From: Paludisphaera rhizosphaerae
Lineage (GTDB): Bacteria > Planctomycetota > Planctomycetia > Isosphaerales > Isosphaeraceae
Direction: 5' to 3'
Assembly: GCF_011065895.1 (NCBI RefSeq)
Contig: NZ_JAALCR010000012.1
Location: 62,001-126,000 of the forward strand
Length of the DNA: 64,000 nt
Shown here: positions 15,328-23,487 of the stretch, in pieces
Numbering within the stretch: the first letter of the stretch is position 1
Layout: the number at the start of each line of letters is the position of its first letter
Translations under genes and position numbers: made by a program
Notes under the pieces: model-generated
What the model was told of the DNA's origin: nothing
Databases searched by the model: none
The model's input: only the letters and a program-made list of their open reading frames with translations

Positions 15328-17697
15328 TTGGGAAGCGCGGACGACCGATTTCGCGAGATGTTCTACGAGGAGGCCCGCGAGCTTCTCATCAGCCTGGAAG
15401 AAGGGTTGATGGAGCTGGAACGCCGGCAGGGCGATCGTGCGCACCTCGACAAGACCTTCCGCGCCGCGCACAGCCTCAAGGGCGCCGCTGCAATGGTCGG
15501 TCTGGGGACCATCGCCGAATTCACCCACGGTATCGAGGCCGTGCTGGATAAGATCCGCACCGGCGGCCTCGTCGTTGATTCGGACATCATCACCACCCTG
15601 CTGGAATCACGCGACCACCTCGCCGCCATGGTCGAAGGAGAGGCAGCCAACTCGCCCATCCCGGGCTCGGGCCACCTTTCCCAGCGCCTGGCCGCCTTGC
15701 TCTTTTCGTCGGGTCGTCGCGACGACCCCCGGCCGGCCTCCGCCGCGCCCGTGCCCGCCCCAGCGCCGGCGCCTCCCTCCGCCCCCCCACCAACCGCCCA
15801 GAAGCCCGAGCCGCCGAAACCGACCCCCGAACCCGAGCCCCCGGTCAGGCAGCCCGTGGTCGAGGTCGCCGCCGAGCCTCCACCCGCCAAACCGAAGCGA
15901 CCTCGCCACAAGGCCGAGCCCACTCCCAAAGCTCACCCGAAGCCCAGGACGGCCCATCGCCAGACGATGCCCGCCGCAGCCGTCGACGAGCCGGCCGCGG
16001 GCGAGATCGTCTACAAAATCCGGTTCACCCCCGGCCCCGACGTCCTCAAGCGGGGGGTGAATCTGCTGGGCGTCTTCGACGAGCTTCGCGAACTGGGAAA
16101 ACTGGACGTCCAGGCGAACATCGACGCCGTCCCCACTCTCAGCGGGTTCGAGCCTGAGCGGTCCTACCTGAGCTGGACCTGCACGCTGCGGACGACCGCC
16201 GAGCCGGACCGGCTGGACGACGTCTTCCTGTTCGTCGCCGAGGACGGCGCGATCAGCGTCGAACGCAGGCTCGCCGACGGCGCGTTCGAGGCGGTCGAAA
16301 CGCCGCTGTTGAAGCTCCCCCCCGGAACCCCCGTCGCCACGCCCCCGTCGACCATCCCCCGGCCGACCCCTCCGCCCCCAGCGCCGGCGGTTCAGTCCAC
16401 CACGGCCCATCCCGGCGAGGCCCCTCACCCGAAACCGAGCGAGGCCGCCGACGCGATCAACGGCCAGGCAAAAACCGCGCATGCGGCGAGGGCCCACGGC
16501 CGGATCCGGGTCGACGCCCAGCAGCTCGACGACCTCGTCGGCCTGGCCGGCGAGTTGGCGGTCATCTCAGACAATCTTCAGGGGCTTCGCGAGATCCGGA
16601 GCGCCTCGCCGTGGGTCGCCACGATCGAATCTCTCCTGCGCGTTAGTCGGGAGATCCGCGACACCACGCTGGACCTCCGCATGGTCCCGGTCGACGAACT
16701 CTTCTCGCGGTTCCCCCGATTCGTTCGCGACCAGGCCGACCGGACAGGCAAGGAGATCGACCTCCGGATCGTCGGCCAGGAGACCCGGCTCGACCGCACG
16801 ATCGTCGAACGCCTGGGCGACCCGATGGTCCACCTGATCCGCAACGCCGTCGACCATGCGCTGGAGACGCCCGAGGAACGGGAGGCGATGGGCAAGCCGC
16901 GGGTGGGCCGGATCACGCTCTCGGCCGGGCATGAAGGCGACCGCGTGGCCATCAAGGTCGAGGACGACGGCCGCGGCCTGGACCGTGAGCGGATCGTCAG
17001 GAAGGGGGTCGAGCGTGGGCTCATCCCTCCCGGAACGCCGGCCGACGACCCCCGGGTGGTGAGTCTCATCTTCGAGCCCGGGTTCTCGACGCGCGACCAG
17101 GTCAGCGAGCTTTCCGGCCGGGGAGTCGGTCTGGACGTCGTCCGCGACTCAGTCCGGGCGCTCCGTGGAAGCCTGGCCGTGGAGAGCGAGCCGGGGCAGG
17201 GGACCTCGTTCATCTTCCGGCTCCCGCTGACCCTGGCCCTGATCGACGGGCTTCTGATCGAGACCGGCGGCGGGCGGTACGTCGTGCCGCTGGCGCAAGT
17301 TGAGGAATGCGTGGCGTTGGGGGGCGTCCAGCAGGCGCTCTCGGCCGGGAGGCCGTGCGTGACCGTCCGCGGCGAGCTGGTGCCGACGGTCTCGCTGCGA
17401 AACCTCTTCGGGATCGACGGCCCGCCGCCTCCTCGGCAGGAATTGCTGCTGACGAGACATTCGGGCCGACGCGTGGGGGTGGCCGTCGACCGCCTCAGTG
17501 GTCGGGTCCAGGCCGTCATCCAGTCGCTGGGCGAAGGGCTGCACAGCCTGAGCCGGTTCTCCGGGGCGACCATCCTGGGAGACGGCTCGGTCTCGCTCAT
17601 CCTGGACCTGTCGGCCCTGGTGTCGGAATCGCGAATCGCCGAGAGCCATTCCCGTAACAAGCCCGCGGCCGGCGTGTGGGCGGAGAACGTGCGATGA
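15328..17697 (+). CDS. cheA: Chemotaxis histidine kinase CheA, 789 aa
   Basis: CheA autophosphorylates in response to the receptor and passes phosphate to CheY and CheB. Domain order: HPt with phospho-His H48 in AAHSLKGAA (residues 1-125); a Pro/Ala-rich linker (135-220); a small alpha/beta domain (about 226-318) in the CheY-binding P2 position; a second Pro-rich linker; dimerisation segment from 391; ATPase with N-box HLIRNAVDH and G-box EDDGRGLD (about 495-640); and a C-terminal CheW-like domain. The start is TTG 15328 with GAGGAAG about ten bases upstream. The stop overlaps the receptor gene start as ATGA, indicating coupled translation. Confidence 0.95.
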
Positions 17698-19529
17698 AGC
17701 TGACCCTGCGAAAGAAAGTCACCCTGGCGCTGGTGGCCTTCGGGCTGATCCCCGCGGGAATCGTCGCGGCGACCGCCTACCTGACCGACGACCAGTTCAA
17801 GCGCAAGCAAGACCTCATCATCCAGACCGCGGCCGGCGCGATCGCGGACAAGATCTACGCTATCGCCCTGACCTCCCCCGAGTCGGCGAAGGCCGTCGAG
17901 GAGGGGCCGGAAGCCGGCGTCCTGCCCGACTGGAAGCCCGACGAGGAGGCCCGGCGGAGGATCCAGTTCGTCATCGGCGAGGTCGTCAAGCGCTTCGAGC
18001 TGGACAACGCCCACATCATGATCGTCGATCCCAACAACCGGCTGGTGATCGACCACCGCGGCCCCGCGGGAACCTTCGACGACAAGCAAGGGGACTTACC
18101 CACCCGGTACAAGGACATCCGCGACGCCGCCGTCGGCGCCGTCGTGGGGCACTCCCAACTGGACGGGGTCTCGGACGTGGTCTCGGGAGAGACGATCGTC
18201 CCCGAGATCGTCGGCTTCGCGTCGATCAAGCGGGCGCTGCCGACCGACGCGACGATCCGGCCCGGGTTCGCCGTCCTGACGGCCGTCCCCCTGGTCAACG
18301 CCTATGAGACGATCTACAACTCTCAATGGACGATCTTCAAGCTCCTGGTGGGGATCGTCCCTCTGACGCTTCTGTTGAGCTTCCTCTTCGGCCGCTGGTT
18401 CATCCGGCCGCTCTTGCAGATCATCCGGGTCACCGGCGACCTGCATCAGGGGCACCTCTACAACCGCACGGGGATCGTCCGATCGGACGAGATGGGGAAT
18501 CTGGCTGGGTTGACGGACTCCGTGGTCGGCAAGCTGTCGGAGGTCATCAGCCAGATCCGCAACACGACCGACTCGGTCTCCACGGCGAGCAACGAATTGA
18601 ACTCGTCGGCCCAGCAACTGGCCCAGGGGGCGCATGAGCAGGCGGCGACGCTCCAGGAGATCGGCTCCAGCCTCCAGTCGGTGGATGGGTCGGTCGCCCG
18701 CAACGCCCAGCACGCCCGCGACACGGCGAGGACTGCCAACGAGGCCAGCGCCCAGGCGAGCAAGGGGGGCGAGGCCGTCCATCAGACGGTGGCCGCGATG
18801 CGCGAGATCACGCAGAAAATTCTGATCGTCGAAGACATCGCCTATCAGACGAACCTGCTGTCGCTGAATGCGGCGATCGAGGCCGCCCGCGCCGGCCCGC
18901 ACGGACGAGGGTTCGCCGTGGTCGCCGGCGAGGTCAAGAAGCTCGCCGAGCGCAGTCAGGCGGCCGCCCAGCAGATCAGCGACCTGGCCAAGAAGAGCGT
19001 GGCCGTGGCCGAGAACGCAGGCCAGCTCCTGGAGCGAACCGTCCCCATGATCCGCGACACCTCCGAACTGATCTCGGAAATCGCCGCCGCCAGCCAGGAG
19101 CAGATGAACGCGATTCGCGAGATCAACATCGGCGTCAAGCAGCTTGAGGACGTCGTCTCGCAGAACGCCGCGGCCAGCCACGAGTTGGCGGCGACGTCGA
19201 CCGACCTGGCCCAGCAGTCGTCGAGCCTCCAACGTGAGGTGGAGTTCTTCCGACTGGAGGCCGGCGCCGCCTCATCGCCGCCGCCCCCCACGCTGGGCGG
19301 CCCACCACCTCGAGGGATCGCCCACCACCGGCCTCCCAAACGGCCCCCCGCGCATCTCGGCGAGATGCCGCGCGGCGAAACCCACCACGCGACCGACAAC
19401 GGCTCCGGAGGCCGAGGCCACGGCGCCCCGCTGCCGCCGCCGGGACCGCCGCCGGGGATCGTCCCGCCGCCTCGAGGCGGGGTCGTGGTCAACCTTGACG
19501 ACGACGACAATTTCGAGCGATTCTCATGA
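17694..19529 (+). CDS. Methyl-accepting chemotaxis protein with C-terminal tether pentapeptide, 611 aa
   Basis: Transmembrane helices at about 9-29 and 212-233 enclose an extracytoplasmic sensor of about 180 residues. A HAMP domain follows (about 234-286), then a coiled-coil signalling domain with the near-universal tip [20 protein letters not shown] at 380-399. After residue 522 an 80-residue Pro/Gly/His-rich flexible tail ends in [11 protein letters not shown]606-F-E-R-F610 fits the aromatic-x-x-aromatic pentapeptide that tethers CheR or CheB to receptors. The ATG overlaps the CheA stop by four bases and has GGAG eight bases upstream. The ligand is unknown. Confidence 0.95.
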
Positions 19530-19587
19530 GGGCCGGAGTCGAATTCGACGCGACCACGCGACCCCACGCCCCGGGAGGGCCCCGCGG

Positions 19588-20094
19588 ATGATCGACGCGA
19601 CCACCGAGCCCGCCGCCGACGCCGACCGCGACCGAGCCCAGTCCTACGTCGTCTTCCGCCTCGGCGGCGAGGGATACGCCCTGGAAGTCCTGCGTGTTCA
19701 GGAGGTCCTCGACGTTCTGGCGATCACCGAAGTCCCCGGCTCCTCACGATGCCTCCTGGGGGTGATCAATCTTCGCGGCCACGTCGTCCCGGTCTATGAC
19801 CTGAGAATCCCGTTCGGGCTCGCCATCGACCCCAAGCCGGCCCGGGCGCCCAGCGTCCTGATCGTCGAGAACGAGGCCGGCAACGACTCCGACGTGACGG
19901 GGCTCCTGGTCGACCGCGTCTCCGACGTGCTGGAGTTCGCTCCTGAGCAGGTCCAGCCGTCCCCCCAACTGGGGCTGGGCAAGACCACCCCGTTCGTCCG
20001 CGGCCTGATCCGCCACCAGGACGCCTTCCTGCTCGTGCTGGACGTCGACCGCGTGTTCTCCGTGCTGGCCACGATCAACGGCGAGGGGGTCTAA
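19588..20094 (+). CDS. cheW: Chemotaxis coupling protein CheW, 168 aa
   Basis: CheW links receptors to CheA. The fold shows YVVFRLGGEGYALEVLRVQEVL, the receptor-contact loop LLGVINLRGHVVPVYDLR (residues about 52-70) with its conserved N-L-R-G, then a second barrel ending LVDRVSDVLEF and FLLVLDVDRVFS. The ATG at 19588 lies 59 bases after the receptor stop; a longer frame overlaps the receptor and is a shadow. CheR begins after one base (TAA-c-GTG), so the two are translated together. Confidence 0.93.
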   Translation: MIDATTEPAADADRDRAQSYVVFRLGGEGYALEVLRVQEVLDVLAITEVPGSSRCLLGVINLRGHVVPVYDLRIPFGLAIDPKPARAPSVLIVENEAGNDSDVTGLLVDRVSDVLEFAPEQVQPSPQLGLGKTTPFVRGLIRHQDAFLLVLDVDRVFSVLATINGEGV

Positions 20095-20095
20095 C

Positions 20096-20962
20096 GTGGC
20101 GTCGTCGGGCCTGCCGCCATCCTCGCCCCCGGGCGAACCCGATCCGTGGTCGGAGAAGGACTTCGGCTGCGTCGTCGGCTTCCTCCGGAGCCAGATCGGC
20201 ATCTCGCTGGAGACGCACCGCATGGGGCTGCTCCAGGCACGCCTGCGCTCGCGGCTTCAAGCCCGAGGGATCGCCAGCTTCACCCAGTTCTATGACCAGG
20301 CCCTGCGCCCCGACCCCACCGGCTGGGGGGCGCAGTTGTTGATCGACCTGTCCACGGTCAACCACACCTCCTTTTTTCGAGAGCCGGCCCACTTCACGTT
20401 CATGGTCGAGCTGGTCCAGAGCTGGCTCCGCGAGACCCCGTCGGCCCCGGTTCGCCTCTGGTCGGCCGGCTGCTCCTCAGGCCAGGAGCCCTACAGCATG
20501 GCCATGGCGCTGGCCGAGACGCTGCCGCAGCACAACCTCGCCCGCATCGACATCTGGGGGAGCGACCTCTCGCTGGAGATGCTGAAGGTCGCCGCCGGCG
20601 CCATTTACACCGCCAGGGACGTCCAGGGGGTCTCTCAGGCCCGACTTCGACGCTTCTTCCTACTGGGCCGCGGGCCTCGCGAGGGCTCGTTCCGGATCGT
20701 CCCGGAGATCCGCGACCTGGTGAAATTTCGACACATCGACCTCCGCACCGGGATCTGGCCGATCCCCGCCGACTTCCACATGGTCTTCTGCCGCAACGTC
20801 TCGATCTACTTCTCGGACGACGATCGGCAGGCGCTGTTGAACCGGCTGGCCCAGCACATCCGGCCCGGCGGCTGGCTGGTGATGGGAAACGGGGAGATCC
20901 TCCCCTCGGTCCCGGCGATGTTCCGCAAACACTCGCCGTCGATCTTCCAGAAAGAGGAGTGA
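20096..20962 (+). CDS. cheR: Chemotaxis protein methyltransferase CheR, 288 aa
   Basis: CheR methylates receptor glutamates using S-adenosylmethionine. The N-terminal helical domain (about 20-105) holds the conserved VNHTSFFREPAHF. The SAM site is LWSAGCSSGQEPYSMAM, with downstream WGSDLSLEML and the late FCRNVSIYF. The beta subdomain includes G191-R-G-P-R-E-G197, matching as I recall it the GTGPHEG loop of the E. coli enzyme, whose subdomain binds the receptor pentapeptide. The start is GTG 20096, one base after the CheW stop. CheB follows nine bases after the stop. Confidence 0.94.
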   Translation: MASSGLPPSSPPGEPDPWSEKDFGCVVGFLRSQIGISLETHRMGLLQARLRSRLQARGIASFTQFYDQALRPDPTGWGAQLLIDLSTVNHTSFFREPAHFTFMVELVQSWLRETPSAPVRLWSAGCSSGQEPYSMAMALAETLPQHNLARIDIWGSDLSLEMLKVAAGAIYTARDVQGVSQARLRRFFLLGRGPREGSFRIVPEIRDLVKFRHIDLRTGIWPIPADFHMVFCRNVSIYFSDDDRQALLNRLAQHIRPGGWLVMGNGEILPSVPAMFRKHSPSIFQKEE

Positions 20963-20971
20963 CCGTCCGCC

Positions 20972-22102
20972 ATGGCCCTGCGCGACCGCTCCAAAACATC
21001 GCCTCCCGGCCACCACGTCACCATCGAGGTCATGGTCGTCGACGACAGCGCCGTGATCCGCCAGCGGCTCAAGTCGATCATTGAATCCGACCCTCGTTTC
21101 CGCGTCACGCTCGCGGCCGATCCTTATGAGGCGGTCGCCATGCTCAGCCGGTCGGTCCCCGGCGTGATCGTGCTGGACGTCGAGATGCCCCGGATGGACG
21201 GCCTGACCTTCCTCCGCAAGCTGATGAAGCAACACCCGATGCCCGTGGTGATGTGCACGTCGGTCGCCGAGCGGGCCGTCACGGCGCTGGAGATGGGGGC
21301 GATCGAGGTAATCGCCAAGCCCGATTGGCTCAACGCCGCTCGGCTGCCGGAGTGGTCGGAGAACCTGCTGGAGAGCGTCCGCAACGCCGCCCGAGCCGGC
21401 AAGCTCCCGTTGCGGGAAGAGCGCCCCCAGGCCGCCTCCGACCCCCGCCACTCGGCGGACGTCGTCCTGCCGCACGCTCCCTACATCCCTCGGGCGACCC
21501 TCGGTGAGCCGATCGTCGTCCTTGGGGTGAGCACGGGCGGCGTTCAGGCGATCCAGGCGTTGCTGCCCCACTTCCCGGCCGACGCCCCCGGTATGGTCGT
21601 CGTTCAGCACATGCCGGCCGACTTCACGGGCGCCTTCGCGGAACGCCTGAACAACGACCCCCGCATCCAGTTGGAAGTCGTCGAGGCCCGCCACCATGAG
21701 CCCATCCGTCGAGGGCGAGTTCTGGTCATCCCCGGCGGGACCTCGCACGGGCTCGTCCGACGCCACGGGTCGGGCTACCGCGTCGAGTTGAACGAGGGTC
21801 CGCCCGTCTGCCTCCACCGGCCGAGCGTGGAAGTTCTTTTCCGGTCGGCCGCGCAGGCCGCCGGCCCCGCCGCCGCGGGCGTCATCATGACCGGCATGGG
21901 CGACGACGGCGCGGGCGGCCTGCTTGAAATGCGCGAGGCCGGCTCGCTGACGATCGCCCAGAATGAGGCCACCTGCGTCGTCTTCGGCATGCCCCGCGAG
22001 GCCATCCGGCGCGGGGCCGCCCGTTACGTTGCGCCTCTCGACTCCATCCCCCACACCATCATGGCCTGGGTCGCCGACCCCGGCGCCGGCACCTGGCACT
22101 GA
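20972..22102 (+). CDS. cheB: Chemotaxis methylesterase/glutamine deamidase CheB, 376 aa
   Basis: The receiver domain (about 18-140) has D24-D25 and phospho-acceptor D69 in VLDVEMPRMDG. A linker of 40 residues leads to the methylesterase domain with catalytic S187 in GVSTGG, H213 in VQHMPADFT and D310 in TGMGDDGAGG. It reverses the methylation made by CheR, completing the adaptation loop. The start at 20972 is 13 bases from GAGGAG; an internal ATG at 21032 is a possible alternative. It is the last gene of the operon, and the DUF1559 gene converges 42 bases downstream. Confidence 0.94.
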   Translation: MALRDRSKTSPPGHHVTIEVMVVDDSAVIRQRLKSIIESDPRFRVTLAADPYEAVAMLSRSVPGVIVLDVEMPRMDGLTFLRKLMKQHPMPVVMCTSVAERAVTALEMGAIEVIAKPDWLNAARLPEWSENLLESVRNAARAGKLPLREERPQAASDPRHSADVVLPHAPYIPRATLGEPIVVLGVSTGGVQAIQALLPHFPADAPGMVVVQHMPADFTGAFAERLNNDPRIQLEVVEARHHEPIRRGRVLVIPGGTSHGLVRRHGSGYRVELNEGPPVCLHRPSVEVLFRSAAQAAGPAAAGVIMTGMGDDGAGGLLEMREAGSLTIAQNEATCVVFGMPREAIRRGAARYVAPLDSIPHTIMAWVADPGAGTWH

Positions 22103-22144: not shown

Positions 22145-23212
22145 TCAATACGAGTCGGACGAAACGACTTCGCCGCCGGCTGCGGAGTTGATCGCCAGCC
22201 AGGTGGGCATGCTGATGCTGTTCTTGACGAACCGCACCGAGCCGTCGCCGAACAGGACGTTGATTCCGCCGGAGTGCTTGCTGCGAGCCCCGGCGTAGGC
22301 CAGCTTGTCGCCGGCGCCGCCGACGCAGGGGAGCCCCTGAACGGGTTCGCTGACGCAGAAGACCGTCTGGTTCAGGAAGTCGCCGCTGATGCCCGAACGG
22401 TAGTAGTCGGTCGGGTTGTTCGGCGCCAGCCGGGCCATGTACGAGGCACCGCCGGGGAGCGTCGACCACATCATGCCGCGGACGTCATACTGGGCGCCCT
22501 GGAGCACCTCCGCGGCGAGGGCCGTGTTGCTGGACCCGTCGGTCATGCCCGCGATCCCCATCGTGAAGAACCCGAACGCTCCCTTCTGGAACGTCGGCAG
22601 GGCCCCGGTTGCCGGGTCGACCATCGGGCTGACAGCCGGGGTCGTATCCTGCCCCCATTGCAGGTTCCCCCAGTTCGCCCCGTAGTTCCCCTTGGTGAAG
22701 GTGATGAAACTCATCGCCCCGCCGGCGTACGCCGGGGTAATCTGGAACTGGTTGATCCGGTCGCTGGGACACTGAAACGTGCTCATCTTCGTCGTGGCCA
22801 CAGTGCTATTGGCGATCATCCCCAGGGGCAGCGGGAGGACGGGCCCCTCGGCCCCGAGCTGGAAGTTGTACGCGTTCGAGAGCACCCCCTGTTCGATGTA
22901 GGGGAGCATCAAGCAAAACCACGGGGTGTTCTGGCAGTTGCTGAAGATGTTCGTCTTGCAAGCCGAGGCCCCCGGGACGAGCGTGCCGCCGACGCCCTGG
23001 ATGCAACCCGTCGGGAACGAATCGTTCGCCGTGTGATAGTTGTGCATCGCCAACCCGAGTTGCTTGAGGTTGTTGACGCACTGGGCGCGGCGCGCGGCTT
23101 CGCGCGCCGCCTGCACGGCCGGTAATAAGAGGGCGATCAACACCGCGATAATGGCGATGACGACCAGTAGCTCGATCAGCGTGAACGCGCGCAGCCTCGA
23201 AGACCTGGACAT
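22145..23212 (-). CDS. DUF1559 pseudopilin-like protein (copy 2), 355 aa
   Basis: The start at 23212 gives [18 protein letters not shown], the prepilin-type signal, followed by [20 protein letters not shown]. The middle domain has Cys-containing loops and a [13 protein letters not shown] motif. The C-terminal H-x9-DG motif is [18 protein letters not shown]. Unlike the other three copies it has no lipoprotein gene next to it: cheB converges on one side and pyrD diverges on the other. A longer frame to 23320 lacks a sensible signal and was rejected. Confidence 0.93.
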
Positions 23213-23487
23213 GTGCGACAGGCTCCTGAACGCGAATTGTCGGGAGAGGACGACCGAACAAGATCGATGACGGTTTGACTTGCCCTCGTCGACGAGGGAC
23301 GCACCGATCACAATATCCATCGGCGGCGCCCGTGGCGAGAACGTTCTGTCAATGTCTTACAATTTTCAGAATCCCTAAATCCGACCCCCGCCTTCCTACG
23401 CTCGAAAGCCTGGCAGCGAAGGTTCGAAAAGGCCATGATGAAGCCGTGGCGCTGGGGTGAACCTCATATGAAGGGAGTCCGACGACG

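Follow-up and report, generated by a model that had tools for sequence, protein, structure and literature searches.

The chemosensory operon

The stretch of DNA that was analysed, hereafter the window, comprises 64,000 nucleotides from Paludisphaera rhizosphaerae. It contains a five-gene operon on the + strand (15328-22102) with the order CheA-MCP-CheW-CheR-CheB, as established by translation and Pfam domains. The CheA kinase (15328-17697, +), for which Pfam finds Hpt, HATPase and CheW domains and the start codon is uncertain, overlaps at its 3′ end the start of the chemoreceptor gene at 17694. The chemoreceptor (17694-19529, +) has 611 amino acids and was identified from its translation, Pfam and an alignment with Tsr. 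CheW (19588-20094, +; translation and Pfam) separates it from the CheR methyltransferase (20096-20962, +), which is the second gene downstream of the receptor and was recognised from its translation, Pfam, a fold model and a gapless alignment to PDB 1bc5. The last gene encodes a CheB methylesterase with receiver and catalytic domains (20972-22102, +; translation and Pfam). The first-pass annotation had called this a self-contained unit. That description fits as far as receptor, kinase, coupling and methylation are concerned, but neither the operon nor the 8 flanking ORFs that were tested yielded a cheY. Downstream of cheB, the minus strand carries a gene (22145-23320) whose DUF1559 product has a pilin-like N-terminal methylation motif.

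Architecture and class of the receptor

An AlphaFold2 model of the receptor, made from 23 sequences (mean pLDDT 69.8, pTM 0.38), predicts a periplasmic sensor domain with a single PAS/Cache-like fold at approximately residues 34-207 (17793-18314, +). The modelled domain is alpha/beta and resembles the sensor domains of WalK and CitA (Z 11-12); a Pfam search of the receptor gave no match there. A long helical stretch, residues 266-517, precedes a disordered tail. Aligned with Tsr, the receptor is seven residues shorter on each helix arm, with 128 residues from the hairpin tip to the coil end vs 135 in Tsr. By length, it is a receptor of class 34H, one heptad shorter per helix than the 36H receptor Tsr. 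The F8 chemosensory class is suggested for the system, the 34H receptor being the only feature that points to it.

The receptor tail

The tail past the coiled coil is 90 residues long, and in the model residues 526-611 stay below pLDDT 50 and form no secondary structure. It is made up of a flexible Pro/Gly/His linker (residues 522-594; 19257-19475, +), which diverges among relatives, and a terminal element of 17 residues (19476-19526, +) with an acidic and aromatic tip, DDDDNFERF. Codons 606-610 (19509-19523, +) encode NFERF, and a single Ser follows, so that the motif is not the strict C-terminus. The flexible Pro/Gly/His tail and the x-[aromatic]-x-x-[aromatic] end reported for this receptor from its sequence are thus both present. 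Pentapeptide-tethered receptors are described as having 10 or more residues of flexible linker (PMC7698151), and here x-[FWY]-x-x-[FWY] lies beyond such a linker past the signalling domain. Under the rule of PMC7390727, in which the pentapeptide xZxxZ forms the last five residues, the window copy is missed because of the Ser that follows NFERF; in 9 of the 26 readable distinct sequences described below, the motif does form the last five residues.

It had also been remarked that F replaces the W of the classical pentapeptide. The substitution is real, but it is not an oddity. Published tethers of class 34H have the form xF/YxxF/Y and occur alongside glycine-loop (group B) CheRs in Geobacter (PMC2577667), so F in place of W is what would be expected in a receptor of 34H length.

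Conservation of the terminal element

Relatives were collected as loci from 40 relative genomes and 25 further loci from a scan of named genomes; the record titles of the latter are planctomycete (two labelled Kuenenia), except for one that reads only 'bacterium'. A complete receptor C-terminus was found in 43 loci, of which 27, including the window, are distinct from the hairpin tip to the end. Exclusion of one frameshifted copy, L012, leaves 26 readable distinct sequences, window included. The automatic tail pattern caught 23 of these, and L014, L040 and L045 were added from direct inspection.

The terminal element is kept in 26/26. Nine sequences end exactly in [ND]FERF, 13 carry one added residue (12 Ser and 1 Asn; 3 read FQRF), and the remaining ends are FERM (3) and FERQP (1), both without the second aromatic. 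Phe at pentapeptide position 2 and Arg at position 4 are invariant (26/26). Among 23 distinct sequences, mean pairwise identity is 0.28 in the linker, whose length ranges from 72 to 101 residues, 0.83 over the last 11 positions, and 0.81 over 128 residues of the signalling domain. Over the 11 tip codons of the 26 sequences, pN/pS is 0.146 with pS = 0.85, showing that it is the protein and not the DNA that is conserved; pN/pS of the signalling domain is 0.22. Selection on the tip therefore acts at the protein level. A DNA- or RNA-level cause of the conserved end was also considered and is ruled out by the variation at synonymous sites.

Could the motif be a random end of a rapidly evolving, low-complexity tail? 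The linker is indeed of low complexity and poorly conserved. However, aromatics make up 1.8% of linker residues, giving an expected frequency of about 3e-4 for xZxxZ at a given place, and the low pN/pS and the retention of the element in every readable sequence already refute chance, to which we assign practically no probability.

A DNA pattern for DDxF[EQ]RF has one match in the 8.05 Mb genome of P. rhizosphaerae and 0 in a reversed control, so by this one pattern the genome has no second protein with the same tip. The pattern is not diagnostic: 169 of the 397 genomes screened in the class give raw matches, and tails known from four genomes (G006, G011, G019 and G020) escape it. Because of these misses, the lack of a match in G008, which harbours a diverged relative discussed below (L024), is little informative.

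Three observations concern individual records. The frameshifted receptor (positions 1-993 of L012, from a 5-contig genome of the same genus) is orthologous and is disrupted in a C-rich linker stretch, by sequencing error or real loss; owing to this frameshift, the conserved element reads in another frame, with a stop directly after NFERF. Between hairpin tip and C-terminus, the receptors of Paludisphaera soli (L061) and of L011, from a genome of the same genus, do not differ, which places the window in Paludisphaera, a genus of the Isosphaeraceae by record titles. Two MAG records labelled Candidatus Kuenenia stuttgartiensis (L055 and L058) both have this operon; the labels look wrong, because the receptor end of L058 is identical to that of L138, from a genome of the window's own family.

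The CheR β-subdomain loop

The β-subdomain loop of the window CheR reads GRGPREG (20666-20686, +), as had been reported for this gene two places past the receptor. It aligns without gaps with GTGPHEG of Salmonella CheR (PDB 1bc5/1af7), the three glycines corresponding to G188, G190 and G194. The likeness had been claimed for the E. coli enzyme; it stands against the Salmonella CheR, the sole sequence compared. The codon for the Arg equivalent to R197 is at 20693-20695 (+) in the alignment. The residues of Salmonella CheR in contact with the peptide are Q182, R187, G188, G190, G194 and R197 (PMC2577667), and the window CheR has R, L, G, G, G and R at these positions, keeping 4/6, with Q182R and R187L as the differences. 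CheRs that bind the pentapeptide are set apart, according to PMC5907407, by R197 and by a longer loop. The window enzyme has such a loop, of 10 residues, with all three glycines and R197, and lacks Q182 and R187. Among the relatives, L019-L023 and L052-L060 do have R187, and L039 has K in place of R197.

The CheR fold model, of medium quality (mean pLDDT 69.6), matches tethered CheRs (1af7, 1bc5) and other types (5y4r, 5ftw) alike, with Z 11.5-12.4, and the fold match is therefore uninformative on loop type. In a diverged relative (46-49%) with cheW-cheR-cheB, L024/L062, the loop reads GREGKKG and G190 is lost; no MCP was found beside this CheR in the fetched 12.8 kb stretch.

Co-occurrence of tail and loop

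In the window's family, each of the 26 readable distinct tails adjoins a CheR with GxGP(R/K)xG. We also surveyed 80 hand-chosen planctomycete CheR loci, counting an MCP if it lay on the same strand of the fetched stretch. All three glycines are present in 14 of the 80 CheRs. The stretch of one of these, L067, has no MCP; each of the other 13 has one with a pentapeptide end (13/13), namely NFERF, DFERF, EFTEY, GFTEF, GFTEY, GFTDF, GFSDF, GFEEF or NFTNF. The other 66 CheRs lack the three glycines, and 55 of them have an MCP, with a pentapeptide in 2 (SFQEF and AFEEF) and none in 53. Fisher's test, which ignores phylogeny and here concerns hand-chosen loci, gives p = 3e-12; with the four copies of this operon removed, p is 2e-9. 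The pairing spans four planctomycete families. Thus, the association of tail and loop expected from the first reading of the sequence is borne out among related genomes, and no receptor with a random C-terminus, which would have spoken against it, turned up next to such a loop; nearest to this are the three FERM ends and the one FERQP end, whose loops are intact.

The coupling of tip and loop is not absolute, since three receptors have a pentapeptide beside a CheR without the glycine loop: L069 and L074 in this survey and L191, an alphaproteobacterial locus. The CheRs of L069 and L074, beside the SFQEF and AFEEF ends, are long (560 and 525 amino acids), and here the pentapeptide perhaps serves CheB.

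Does the tip of the window receptor likewise recruit mainly CheB, via its linker helix, or both enzymes, with the CheR loop simply inherited? In E. coli, NWETF binds both enzymes, CheB weakly, and positions 128, 132 and 134 of the CheB site modelled there carry positive residues (PMC8609364). CheB helices of KVKxAA type occur at L069 and L074. In the window CheB we take this region to read VRNAARAG, from a by-eye alignment to E. coli/Salmonella CheB in which only 128 and 132 are kept. Because only these two are kept, and because a tailless system of the same genome (L140) has a similar helix, the CheB helix does not discriminate. The close adherence of the CheR loop to the tail across the survey counts against this reading, and we regard recruitment of mainly CheB or of both enzymes, with an inherited CheR loop, as rather unlikely.

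In another planctomycete family (L064-L066, L071, L072, L075 and L078), the receptors end in GFTEF, GFTDF, EFTEY and the like, and the CheRs are of 488-545 amino acids and have the glycine loop, with A or S at the place of R197. By sequence, these pairs appear to be a second tether dialect. Among glycine-loop survey loci with a pentapeptide, which represent few lineages, E at tether position 3 goes with R197 in 5/5 and T or S with A or S at 197 in 7/8.

Paralogues and output in the P. rhizosphaerae genome

By Pfam families, the genome encodes three MCPs and four CheRs. Only one MCP of the three has a pentapeptide tail, and only one CheR of the four has the glycine loop; the tail/loop pair is thus unique within this genome. 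The loops of the three other CheRs have 6 or 7 residues vs 10 and lack the glycines. One of the other receptors (C35) ends at the coiled coil, and the other (C19) ends in SVGALEPPAHTTGA.

No match to FliM was found in the genome by a search that matches 4 of 14 control genomes, and for this reason the output is probably not flagellar. Eight T2SSE/pilus-type ATPases exceed the Pfam cut-off.

Proposed role of the tail

What is the function of the receptor tail? By analogy with NWETF on Salmonella CheR, we consider it very likely that the receptor end is a docking tether for the CheR of its operon. The acidic, aromatic tip of the disordered tail would add an edge strand to the CheR β-subdomain, and the docking site, encoded two genes on, would be the GxGP(R/K)xG loop. 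Docking would keep CheR close to where the receptor array is methylated and, with several MCPs and CheRs in the genome, would dedicate this enzyme to its own receptor. Faster methylation and insulation of the pathway would be the expected consequences.

The window very probably encodes a tether and the CheR that matches it, in a planctomycete version of the class 34H kind, and the system is ordinary in principle. With the class 34H/F8 systems of Geobacter (PMC2577667) and P. syringae (PMC11253619) it shares the receptor length, a glycine-loop or GXX-insertion CheR in the cluster, and, with class 34H (PMC2577667), F/Y at tether position 2. In P. syringae, the F8 34H receptor PSPTO_0912 is the only pentapeptide receptor and is clustered with the only GXX-insertion CheR, PSPTO_0910 (PMC11253619). 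The window system differs from both in being planctomycete, in the acidic and hydrophobic conserved element before the pentapeptide, in the extra Ser, and in the lack of a FliM match. Tar and Tsr of E. coli/Salmonella, with NWETF, share the aromatic-x-x-aromatic motif on a flexible C-terminal arm, and Salmonella CheR shares the GxGPxEG loop and the R197 equivalent; unlike the window receptor, Tar and Tsr are 36H, have W at position 2 and a linker of about 35 residues, and belong to a flagellar system. McpB/Aer2 of P. aeruginosa (GWEEF) resembles the window receptor in that the tether pairs one receptor with one CheR among paralogues, here CheR2 (F7), a pair that is unique in its genome (PMC7390727); by contrast, McpB/Aer2 is 36H and cytosolic and has W at position 2.

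New here are the phylum, as far as searched, and a conserved terminal element that is longer than the pentapeptide. Our literature search returned no earlier report of a pentapeptide chemoreceptor tether in Planctomycetota. Searches for NFERF or for methyl-accepting chemotaxis in Isosphaeraceae gave nothing relevant; among the matches listed, no paper on planctomycete chemotaxis concerns tethers by its title, and those for the tail strings of relatives held nothing relevant. Pentapeptides have been reported in 11 phyla (PMC7390727), and the main text of that survey does not contain 'planctomyc', yet planctomycetes may be among the 11. The locus places enzyme tethering in Planctomycetota, in a genome without a FliM match, and we argue that tethering therefore serves pathway pairing and adaptation generally, beyond flagellar or gut bacteria.

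Receptors of 34H length outside Planctomycetota

For comparison with other phyla, 22 plasmid loci were considered, of which 10 have both a CheR and a receptor with the tip-to-QNA spacing of the window (96). The remaining 12 were not counted (nine have a CheR without such a receptor, and three such a receptor without a CheR). The receptors of two gammaproteobacterial plasmid loci, L174 and L189, end in DFTRF and DFVRF beside glycine-loop CheRs. They are of 34H length and share the [DN]FxRF end with the window family, and L174 also shares the CheW-CheR-(CheD)-CheB neighbourhood; unlike in the window, cheD is present, and no part resembling GGVVVNL was seen. In seven alphaproteobacterial loci, the receptors end like GFALDMSMGGPDADDADFRESA, without the second aromatic. 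The CheRs of these seven keep the loop length and R197; G188 and G190 are absent in 7/7, and G194 is present in 2. The 34H-length alphaproteobacterial receptors of L175, L176, L178, L179, L183, L192 and L195 share a C-terminus like GFALDMS..GGPD.DD.DFRESA and have no classical pentapeptide.

The length of the conserved element, about 17 residues, exceeds that of a pentapeptide, and an end of similar appearance, GFALDMS..D..DF with no second aromatic, is retained by many alphaproteobacterial receptors of 34H length. Both facts would suit a conserved end that serves polar localisation, stability or contact with CheA/CheW, its likeness to a pentapeptide being coincidental. We consider such a role improbable, since the tail co-occurs with the CheR glycine loop over four planctomycete families, and since G188 and G190 are absent from the CheRs of all seven alphaproteobacterial loci whose receptors lack the second aromatic.

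A docking tether for CheR could itself extend beyond the pentapeptide. Against the alphaproteobacterial tails, the whole tail scored 21.8 vs 17.7 for shuffles (SD 0.88, best of 200 = 20.0), and against the gammaproteobacterial tails 25.6 vs 16.2 (SD 1.42, best shuffle 21.6). The upstream part alone was not significant against the former (16.6 vs 15.3, SD 0.68, best of 300 shuffles 17.2) and scored 15.2 vs 14.0 (SD 1.07) against the latter. A start like G-h-x-h-x-[LM] was seen by eye in 17 of 19 alphaproteobacterial tails, the two without it being from Aureimonas; this hints at a terminal element that is older and more extended. We tentatively offer the idea that the 34H docking element may be a bipartite peptide of about 17 residues, in which a hydrophobic strand (GGVVVNL, or GFALDMS in alphaproteobacteria) is followed by an acidic stretch ending in Phe, with the pentapeptide merely its tip. 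The alphaproteobacteria would have dropped the second aromatic together with G188 and G190 of CheR and kept the rest, and tether and loop would co-evolve as lineage-specific codes that separate parallel chemosensory pathways. The odds of this are modest, because the upstream part alone does not rise above shuffles.

The tips and loops that occur in nature (FERF, FERM, FTEF, FxRF and FRESA) form a series that offers peptide panels for the residues that decide recognition. Two Cupriavidus loci (L180 and L182) have glycine-loop CheRs, with no MCP found in the stretch, and in Azospirillum B510 the receptor ends in RYTAF beside a CheR without the glycines.
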